From NCBI RefSeq assembly GCF_017643905.1, contig NZ_JAEPMO010000001.1, forward strand, positions 1 to 64,000: a stretch of 64,000 bases of DNA, read 5' to 3'. A program made the translations under genes and the position numbers. The notes under the pieces were generated by a model. It was not told the DNA's origin. It searched no databases and saw nothing but the letters and a program-made list of their open reading frames with translations. The stretch's first letter is position 1. Each line of letters begins with the position of its first letter. This document shows positions 32,532 to 41,257 of the stretch, piece after piece. This stretch comes from Marivita sp. (GTDB taxonomy: Bacteria; Pseudomonadota; Alphaproteobacteria; Rhodobacterales; Rhodobacteraceae).

Positions 32532-34022
32532 CTAGTGGCCCAGCAGTTCATCCATCGCGCCGGGCTTGTCATAAATGGCAAGCCTGTCGACGATGGTTTC
32601 GGACGCCTTATTCAGGCCAATCAGCTCGACCTCCGCACCTTCGCGGCGGAACTTGAGAACGGCCATGTCAAGCGCGGCAACCGACGAGATGTCCCAGATA
32701 TGCGCGCGGCTGAGGTCGATGGTCACGCGGGCGGGGGCTTCGCGGAAATCGAAGGCTTTCATGAAATCCTCGGACGAGGCGAAGAACAATTGGCCCTCGA
32801 TGGTATAGGTACGGTGTTCGCCGTCCGGCGTGATCGTGGAGCGCACGCGGAAAAGTTGCGAGATCTTCCAGGCAAAGAAGATGCCCGAGAGCAGCACACC
32901 GACCAACACGCCAATGGCGAGGTTGTGGGTGTAGATCACGAAAAACACGGTCGCCAGCATCACGATGGAGGACGAGCGTGGGTGATCGCGCAGGTTCTTG
33001 ATCGACGACCACGAGAAGGTGCCGATGGACACCATGATCATGATCGCAACAAGCGCTGCCATCGGGATGATCGCCACGATATCGCCGAGAGCTACGACAA
33101 GGATCAGCAGGAAGAGACCGGCCACGAAGCTCGACAATCGCCCACGTCCGCCGGATTTCACGTTGATGATCGACTGCCCGATCATGGCGCAGCCTGCCAT
33201 GCCTCCGATAAACCCGGTGGCCGAATTGGCGAGGCCCTGACCGATGCATTCCTGATTGCGGTTGGACGTGGTGTCGGTGAGGTCATCGACGATCTGCTGG
33301 GTCATCAGGCTTTCCAGCAGTCCAACCACGGCCACCGCAACCGAATAGGGGAAGATGATCTGCAGGGTCTCGAATGTCAGCGGAATGTCCGGAATGAGGA
33401 ACACCGGCAGCGTGTCGGGCAGTTCGCCCATATCGCCCACGGTGCGCACATCCCACCCCATGAAGACCACCACGGCGGTCAGCACGATGATGGTGACCAG
33501 TGGCGACGGGACTGCTTTGGTCACCATGGGAAAGAGGTAGATGATTAACAGACCCGATGCTACAAGTGCATAGGTCAGCATCGGCACGCGGCTTGGATCG
33601 AGTTCGGGCAATTGCGCCATGAAGATCAGGATCGCCAGCGCGTTGACAAAGCCGGTCATCACGGATTTCGACACGAAGCGCATCACATAGCCGAGCCTCA
33701 GCAGTCCTGCGCCGATCTGCAGGAGACCCGCAAGCACTGTTGCCGCAAGCAGGTATTGCAGCCCGTGGTCCTTGACCAGCGTGACCATGAGAACGGCAGT
33801 TGCCGCAGTGGCCGCCGAAATCATGCCTGGCCGGCCCCCTGTGATGGCCGTGATCACCGCAATCGAGAAGGACGCATACAGGCCGACCTTGGGGTCGACC
33901 CCGGCAATGATCGAGAACGCGATCGCTTCGGGGATCAACGCAAGAGCTACCACCAACCCAGACAGCAGATCGCCGCGAATGTTGTGGGTCCATTGTCGTT
34001 TGTACTGTGCAAGAGAGATCAT
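32532..34022 (-). CDS. SulP-family anion transporter with STAS domain
   Basis: This 496-residue inner-membrane transporter starts [46 protein letters not shown], the SulP signature. It has about ten or eleven helices and the conserved [51 protein letters not shown]. The C-terminal STAS domain spans about 400-490 ([38 protein letters not shown]). Substrates in the family are sulfate, bicarbonate or dicarboxylates. In marine bacteria a bicarbonate role is possible; sequence alone does not decide. Confidence 0.92.
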
Positions 34023-39799: not shown

Positions 39800-39984
39800 C
39801 TGTAAAGCCTGCCTGATTCCCGATGTGAGGGACAGTGTGTCGCGGGGTTTGGCGCGGAGTCAACGATTTGGTTCCGCATGTGGTAACTTGGTGCGGCTTA
39901 TCCACAAGATATTGCGGTCTTGTTAAGGTATTTTCCGGAGGTCCGGTGCTGCTTTTCAAACGAGCAATGCAGGCAGATCTTTAC

Positions 39985-40000
39985 ATTCTGATTTTTGAAT
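39985..40000. promoter_or_regulatory. SqrR-type box 1 (ATTC-N8-GAAT)
   Basis: ATTC TGATTTTT GAAT, with symmetry extended outward to TACATTC...GAATGTA (seven-base arms). The spacing and sequence equal the ATTC-N8-GAAT consensus reported for SqrR, the persulfide-sensing ArsR-type repressor of Rhodobacter capsulatus. It is 40 bases before a membrane-protein start. Confidence 0.7.
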
Positions 40001-40008
40001 GTATATGT

Positions 40009-40024
40009 ATTCCGAAATCCGAAT
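40009..40024. promoter_or_regulatory. SqrR-type box 2 (ATTC-N8-GAAT)
   Basis: ATTC CGAAATCC GAAT, with five-base arms TATTC...GAATA, lies eight bases after box 1 and ends just before the AAGGAG ribosome site. Binding of a repressor here would block the promoter or early transcript of the following gene. Confidence 0.65.
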
Positions 40025-40039
40025 ATAAGGAGACTCGCC

Positions 40040-41257
40040 ATGGACCATTCCGTATCCAGACCCGCTGACACCTATTCGCCAATCTACTTTCTGGCCTCGC
40101 TTGGCGCGGGCGGGATCGCGGTCACGTTCTTCATGTTCCTGATGTTCTGGGTGCCGCATCCGGGGCAGCCGGTGCCTGTCTTCGAAGACATCGCTGCTGC
40201 ATTTGCCAAGGGCGGTGCGCCCATGCAGGTCGCCATTGCGGCCGCATTGATCGGGATTGCCGTCTTTGCCTTTCTCAACATCAAATCACTGATCTGGAAT
40301 CTGCAATCCCTGTCGGCGTTCAAGAAAACCGATGCCTACACAAAGCTGCGCGAAACCAACGCCGAGGCCACGCTTCTCGCGATGCCGCTTGCGCTTGCGA
40401 TGAGCGTGAACGCGATGTTCATCGTGGGTCTCGTCTTCGTGCCGCAGCTTTGGAGCGTGGTGGAATACCTCTTCCCAATGGCGCTGATCGCCTTTGCCGC
40501 GATCGGCGTGCTGGCCCTCCGCATGATCGGCGCGTTCTTGGGACGCGTCCTGTCCAAAGGCGGCGTGTTCGATGTGACCGCGCATAACTCGTTTGCGCAG
40601 CTTCTGCCTGCCTTCAGCATTGCCATGGTCGGCGTCGGTTTCGCCGCCCCTGCCGCGATGAGCACGTCCGCCACCACGGTCGCCGTTGCCCTGATGCTGT
40701 CGACCTTCTTTGGTGTGGCTGCGATCCTCTACACCGTGATTGCCGCGACCACAGCCTTTGCGTCGATGCTTCAGCACGGGACGGCGCGGGAATCCGGCCC
40801 GACCCTGATGATCATCGTGCCGATTGTCACCGTTCTGGGCATCCTCTTCCTGCGTCAGAGCCACGGTTTGCACGTCGCTTTTGACACCCATGCACAACCG
40901 GGCGAGACCATGATCTTCCTCGCACGGCTGCTGTCCATCCAGATCGTGTTCCTGCTTCTGGGTGCGGTTGTCATGATGCGTCAGGGATATTTCAGTGACT
41001 TCGTCATGGGCAGCAAGACCTCGCCGGGCTCTTACGCTCTGGTCTGCCCGGCGGTTGCGCTTTCGGTCATGCTCCACTTCTTCGTGAACAAGGGTCTTGT
41101 CGCGGCTGGTGCAATCGAGAAGTTTGGTGTGGCCTATTGGAGTGTGACGGGCATTGCCATCGTGGCGCAGATCGTCGCGATCGCTTTGGTTCTGCGCCTC
41201 AACCGTCAGCACTTTGCGCGCAGGGTCATCGCTGCCAATGCAGTTCCTGCTGAATAA
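40040..41257 (+). CDS. Multi-pass membrane protein, possibly TsoY/TDT-like, under SqrR-type boxes
   Basis: This 405-residue inner-membrane protein has about ten hydrophobic helices. ATG 40040 follows AAGGAG; the track start at 39995 lies inside the putative operators. Features are SPIYFLASLGAGGIAVTFFMFLMFWVPHPGQPVPVFEDI, ETNAEATLLAMPLALAMSVNAMFIVGLVFVP and TSPGSYALVCPAVALSVMLHFFVNKGLV. The pattern suggests relation to the tellurite/dicarboxylate (TDT/SLAC1-like) channels; similar proteins may be labelled TsoY. The two upstream ATTC-N8-GAAT sites suggest induction by sulfide or persulfide, which would point to sulfur-compound export or sensing. Function is inferred only. Confidence 0.6.
   Translation: MDHSVSRPADTYSPIYFLASLGAGGIAVTFFMFLMFWVPHPGQPVPVFEDIAAAFAKGGAPMQVAIAAALIGIAVFAFLNIKSLIWNLQSLSAFKKTDAYTKLRETNAEATLLAMPLALAMSVNAMFIVGLVFVPQLWSVVEYLFPMALIAFAAIGVLALRMIGAFLGRVLSKGGVFDVTAHNSFAQLLPAFSIAMVGVGFAAPAAMSTSATTVAVALMLSTFFGVAAILYTVIAATTAFASMLQHGTARESGPTLMIIVPIVTVLGILFLRQSHGLHVAFDTHAQPGETMIFLARLLSIQIVFLLLGAVVMMRQGYFSDFVMGSKTSPGSYALVCPAVALSVMLHFFVNKGLVAAGAIEKFGVAYWSVTGIAIVAQIVAIALVLRLNRQHFARRVIAANAVPAE

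Follow-up and report, generated by a model that had tools for sequence, protein, structure and literature searches.

The promoter of the membrane protein gene tsoY in Marivita sp. carries two tandem ATTC-N8-GAAT palindromes. We consider it likely that a persulfide-sensing repressor of the ArsR type, from the SqrR/SoxR clade, has its operator here, and that the apparently SLAC1-like TsoY handles a reduced-sulfur anion by means of its cysteine C336. The promoter lies in a stretch of 64,000 nucleotides that was analysed as a whole and is called the window below. Both 16-bp cores (Table 1) match ATTC-N8-GAAT exactly, and they are separated by 8 bases, with the second box standing just ahead of the AAGGAG ribosome-binding site, i.e. 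the boxes are situated as the initial annotation had described them. ATTC-N8-GAAT is cited as the deduced SqrR recognition site (PMC9774250).

Table 1. Features of the tsoY promoter (positions in the window) and the two SqrR-like regulators of the same genome (G000).
Feature	Position	Strand	Description
Candidate -35, TTTACA	39980..39985	+	Overlaps the left arm of box 1; predicted from the sequence and the conservation of TTTACA-TTC in orthologues
Box 1	39982..40003	+	Extended palindrome TACATTC-N8-GAATGTA; 16-bp core 39985-40000, ATTCTGATTTTTGAAT; conserved in orthologues
Candidate -10, TATATG	40002..40007	+	16 bases downstream of the -35, in the stretch that separates the boxes; predicted
Box 2	40006..40027	+	Extended palindrome TGTATTC-N8-GAATATA; 16-bp core 40009-40024, ATTCCGAAATCCGAAT; conserved in orthologues
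Ribosome-binding site, AAGGAG	40027..40032	+	Downstream of box 2
tsoY	40040..41257	+	405 aa, ATG at 40040; TsoY_fam NF047644; single cysteine C336, codon 41045-41047
SqrR-like regulator 1 (SoxR)	G000:C85:6234-6569		Gene of the sox cluster
SqrR-like regulator 2 (second paralogue, P2)	G000:C68:1627-1917		

The arrangement of the boxes suggests how such an operator would work. Box 1 would cover the spacer between the -35 and -10 elements, and box 2 the probable transcription start. As long as reactive sulfur is absent, a repressor dimer on the boxes would block RNA polymerase; sulfane sulfur would link the two cysteines of the repressor, which would release the DNA and allow tsoY to be expressed. 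TsoY, with its modelled SLAC1/TehA fold, would then move or gate a small reduced-sulfur anion, the invariant C336 being the putative reactive part. In the two-box promoters of orthologues TTTACA mostly overlaps the left arm of box 1, and the boxes are separated by an AT-rich, -10-like stretch (TAAATAT/TATATT-like), which supports the candidate TATATG. A repressor bound to either box would thus be expected to cover the promoter. Note that the tsoY promoter was missed by a simple promoter scan.

The conservation of the boxes was investigated in 80 loci from a species-level genome collection, fetched as relatives of TsoY. Exact cores were counted up to 250 bp from the start codon, with the rest of these loci (832,320 bp) as the background. 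At least one exact box was present in 60 of the 80 loci and at least two in 39, as compared to 4 exact cores in the background. The conservation upstream of orthologues, which the initial annotation had named as a check of its proposal, is therefore evident. The arms of the boxes are constant and the eight spacer bases vary freely, i.e. we see the pattern expected of selection on a dimer site. The spacing of the boxes is regular as well, since the box starts are 24 or 25 bp apart in 33 of the 36 two-box promoters with close boxes. All counts of conservation and co-occurrence given here are inflated by kinship among the genomes.

The number of boxes in the window is unremarkable; it is their arrangement and conservation that make the case. 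Two exact ATTC-N8-GAAT sites were observed in the window against 1.10 expected, 29 out of 100 shuffles reached two, and the whole genome contains 37 exact 16-bp boxes that are mostly within open reading frames. The extended form TAYATTC-N8-GAATRTA, with at most one mismatch, matches nothing in 4.44 Mb but the two tsoY boxes, and the seven sites with two mismatches are all within or overlapping reading frames. The earlier statement that one match per window is expected by chance, and two with long arms are not, is thus correct as regards the expectation and the uniqueness of the extended arms, but a count of two is still within chance. We regard the boxes as non-random because the orthologue promoters conserve the cores and the extended form is unique in the genome. 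The view that they are functionless products of chance agrees with the expected number of 16-bp matches in a window, but in the face of a conservation far above the background and the uniqueness of the extended sites it is scarcely credible, and chance as a cause of the arrangement is ruled out by the 60 boxed loci as against the 4 background cores.

In the 250-bp interval searched, the other 20 of the 80 loci are without an exact box. About seven of them show a near match at the position of the box. Another palindrome seems to be present in at least eight, GTGAC-N3-GTCAC-like, in which case the same gene is possibly under another control. This palindrome, followed by CG, is seen upstream of tsoY in L076, L079, L080, L081, L082, L090, L091 and L107. 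Genes of Crp/Fnr-type regulators are located inside the fetched region of the box-less loci L076, L079, L082 and L090.

Exact boxes also precede other genes of the Marivita genome. An identical box, ATTCATTCGGATGAAT, occurs twice on one contig (G000:C230:1081 and 7531; L113), one copy preceding a GntR-type regulator and the other an ABC transporter ATPase, apparently of a phosphonate system; these two boxes probably belong to another regulator. Further examples at the starts of genes are those of a metallo-beta-lactamase-fold protein (G000:C157:16990; L117) and of an apparent 5-aminolevulinate synthase, hemA (G000:C64:17601; L115).

Candidate repressors were found elsewhere in the genome. Two of the ten HTH_5 matches are SqrR-like ArsR regulators (Table 1), so the SqrR/BigR-like gene on which the initial annotation depended is present, and in two versions. 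Both proteins have the ArsR winged-helix fold with Rhodobacter capsulatus SqrR as the best solved-structure match (6o8k to 6o8o, 13ct), the E-values against the SqrR structures being 2e-34 and 6e-31. Both sensor cysteines of SqrR are aligned in both regulators (MILC and FC motifs). Since their scores of 96.7 and 104.9 bits miss the cut-off of the BigR equivalog NF040642 (155 bits), neither of them is BigR itself, and both are relatives.

In the sox cluster the SoxR gene is accompanied by soxS, soxV, soxW and a YeeE/YedE transporter gene; both soxB and soxX of this cluster are preceded by boxes. SoxR is an SqrR-related repressor that responds to sulfane sulfur, and binding regions have been reported inside sox clusters (PMC10451225). 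The exact ATTC-N8-GAAT core is present in the soxW-soxX gap in 17 out of 20 sampled genera (L241-L260), the soxX boxes being of the type AATTCA-N6-TGAATTT, and the box in this gap is likely to be a SoxR operator. In other words, the same core at soxX ties the box to the SqrR/SoxR clade independently of tsoY. The soxB box says little in this respect, because its entire sequence, with the spacer, is shared by nearly all Marivita genomes.

There is no regulator or obvious sulfur-oxidation gene adjoining tsoY in this genome; a sulfur context is apparent when genomes are compared. An SqrR-family homologue was found in 52 out of 52 tsoY genomes searched. Over 249 genera of the family, soxB was present in 62 of the 68 genomes with tsoY and in 102 of the 181 without it (odds ratio 8.0, p = 4e-8). 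As tsoY occurs without soxB in 6 of the 68 genera, and the boxes are kept in 4 of these 6, a requirement of soxB was rejected. A gene of a sulfide:quinone-reductase-like flavoprotein lies near tsoY in the box-less loci L079, L082 and L110 and in the boxed locus L094; the protein of L082, to which the others were matched, has as its best NCBIfam match a type III SQR model whose cut-off it does not reach. A YeeE/YedE-type gene is near tsoY in the box-less L076.

It is possible that an unrelated regulator reads the palindromes and that their likeness to SqrR sites is accidental. The core of 4+4 bases is short, and SqrR-type binding is a prediction here, but the core at soxX, the SqrR-family regulators in all searched tsoY genomes and the sulfur context would then all have to be coincidental, so we find this reading quite improbable. 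We predict that tsoY is induced by reactive sulfur, as the initial annotation proposed, because SqrR/SoxR-type boxes are conserved on its promoter in many related marine bacteria.

Several observations on the neighbourhood of tsoY may be added. The window also encodes a SulP-family-like anion transporter (32532-34022, minus strand), at a distance of about 6 kb from tsoY. A TDT (TehA-like) gene is found beside or near tsoY in the box-less loci L079, L082 and L186, i.e. apparently related folds are encoded side by side. In L186 there are, in addition, a multihaem cytochrome and a flavoprotein that resembles the sulfide:quinone-reductase-like protein of L082.

The two paralogues differ as candidates for the tsoY repressor. 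In the tree, the C68 protein is in a separate clade, P2, and SqrR is near the SoxR-type clade. On the one hand, the SoxR of the sox cluster may repress tsoY as another member of its regulon, the second paralogue having some other job. SoxR is encoded in the sox cluster, its predicted operator at soxX has the same 16-bp core, tsoY tracks soxB, and boxes are found in genomes with a SoxR/SqrR-type regulator only (G023, G622, L085, L095, L096, L101 and L102). But the sites are not of the same type: in a comparison devised after the data were seen, ATTCA was found in 31 of 34 soxX half-sites as opposed to 15 of 88 tsoY half-sites in genomes with P2 (13 of 22 in those without P2). Moreover, 17 of 31 genomes with P2 have tandem tsoY boxes, as against 0 of 15 without it (p = 2e-4); among the former are L075, L098 and G194, which keep the tandem boxes and in which no SoxR-type regulator was found. 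SoxR is thus a tenable but tentative choice.

On the other hand, P2 may be a near-dedicated tsoY repressor with a shifted operator preference, for which the chances seem to be close to even. It forms a clade of its own and retains both cysteines, tandem and non-ATTCA boxes accompany it, and in this genome the extended box occurs at tsoY only. P2 also co-occurs with tsoY over the 249 genera, being present in 31 of the 68 genera with tsoY as compared to 26 of the 181 without it (odds ratio 5.0, p = 6e-7, with the P2 score threshold set by eye at the score gap), but this correlation is confounded by phylogeny, and the 26 genera that have P2 without tsoY speak against a dedicated function. The same is true of the P2 neighbourhood, which contains no sulfur genes and, in most genomes, no strong box of its own. 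The tandem and non-ATTCA boxes, the genomes with tandem boxes in which no SoxR was found and the co-occurrence of tsoY with P2 give P2 a slight advantage over SoxR as the candidate for the boxes of the window.

The product of tsoY, which the initial annotation called uncharacterised, already has a place in the NCBI TsoY (seleno)protein family NF047644, as it matches the full profile (1-378) with 520 bits against a cut-off of 150. The Pfam search gave no family match, SLAC1 included, and the NCBIfam search no TDT match. With 63.8 bits the protein is well under the 250 bits of the selenoprotein TsoY model NF047643; it has an open frame with Cys at 336. Among 399 genomes of the phylum, none was found to encode a selenoprotein TsoY above the cut-off. 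A 2026 review (PMC13188914) gives UxxV as the Sec motif of TsoY. C336, the sole cysteine of the window TsoY, is within C-P-A-V (C336-P-A-V339). All 50 aligned relatives have this cysteine, as do three members that belong to other families of the same phylum. Because C-P-A-V fits UxxV and the residue is invariant in the relatives, C336 very probably corresponds to the selenocysteine of the Sec-containing TsoY proteins.

Genes of this type were also seen on plasmids. The large Rhodobacteraceae plasmids CP049029.1 (L314) and NZ_CP022416.1 (L315) bear tsoY, annotated as hypothetical protein, and an unannotated tsoY-like gene with a frameshift just before the conserved cysteine is found on the Aliarcobacter plasmid NZ_CP099557.1 (L313:4974-6245), where a SulP anion transporter gene is the nearest annotated one upstream in the same orientation. 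The Aliarcobacter match ends before the cysteine, but a Sec codon was rejected as the reason, since the second frame reads LICPGV.

The fold of TsoY was modelled with AlphaFold2 from a 50-sequence alignment (mean pLDDT 88.6). The model is a ten-helix and probably SLAC1/TehA-like protein. The best 23 Foldseek matches in the PDB are TehA and SLAC1-type proteins with probability 1.00, but the E-values are 1e-3 or worse, and the TM-scores, normalised by query, are mostly 0.42-0.56; by target they reach 0.72. With three TDT proteins, a profile comparison gave no match. When TsoY and 22 TDT proteins were aligned as profiles in forced global mode (E 1e-5, probability 62%; weak unless global), C336-P337 fell on the F-P of TM9, so that TsoY is apparently without the gate phenylalanine, i.e. 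F450 in AtSLAC1 and F262 in HiTehA (PMC10645844). The match of C336 to this gate residue is suggestive, because the profile match appears only in the forced global mode and at that probability.

The most likely function of TsoY is to transport a small reduced-sulfur anion, such as sulfite, hydrosulfide, thiosulfate or similar, or to gate its passage. It might instead be a membrane thiol/selenol oxidoreductase that reduces or transfers sulfane sulfur via C336, with the SLAC1-like fold as a mere scaffold. Selenocysteine is typical of redox catalysis, and TsoY has one invariant cysteine at the probable selenocysteine position, but this cysteine is single, no second redox residue or cofactor motif was seen and the modelled fold belongs to anion channels, hence we think this somewhat unlikely. 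As to the anion-handling TsoY that we prefer, its most specific version is a SLAC1-fold channel in which the gate phenylalanine has become a reactive cysteine (Sec elsewhere), possibly gated or permeated directly by sulfane sulfur, and expressed only once P2, as a dedicated repressor with a shifted operator preference, has released the tandem operator. Taken with all these details it is a rather long shot.

TsoY is a family of no known function that includes selenoproteins. The conserved, predicted operator of a persulfide repressor makes sulfide, polysulfide and thiosulfate the conditions under which a tsoY phenotype should be sought, and the invariant cysteine at a possible channel-gate position is one residue to probe. 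In addition, the two box types, seen in genomes that have either one SqrR-like paralogue or two, are a naturally occurring example in which a repressor has been duplicated and operators have diverged.

The predicted system can be compared to several known ones. NCBI names an ArsR/SmtB-type regulator, TsoR (NF045707), for tso; the candidates found here are of the same type, but neither of them reaches its cut-off, and there is no tso neighbourhood around tsoY in this genome. The window protein is in the TsoY family and its motif fits UxxV, but it is the Cys form and below the cut-off of the selenoprotein model. With the SqrR system of R. capsulatus (PMC9774250, PMC9995734), the predicted system shares the ATTC-N8-GAAT core, a two-cysteine ArsR repressor and the bacterial family, and it differs in the predicted target, tsoY with two tandem boxes, and in the two paralogues of the genome. 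As in the thiosulfate oxidisers with SoxR (PMC10451225, PMC12423496), the C85 regulator is encoded between soxS and a YeeE/YedE gene. The operators are different, since the soxX boxes are ATTCA-N6-TGAAT with AA/TT flanks, whereas those of tsoY are mostly ATTC(C/T) with TAC/GTA flanks. Finally, TsoY resembles the SLAC1/TehA (TDT) proteins in the probable ten-helix fold indicated by Foldseek and in the residue-Pro element of the gate in TM9; it differs from them in being about 90 residues longer, in having no Pfam match and in the gate phenylalanine, which is apparently a cysteine.
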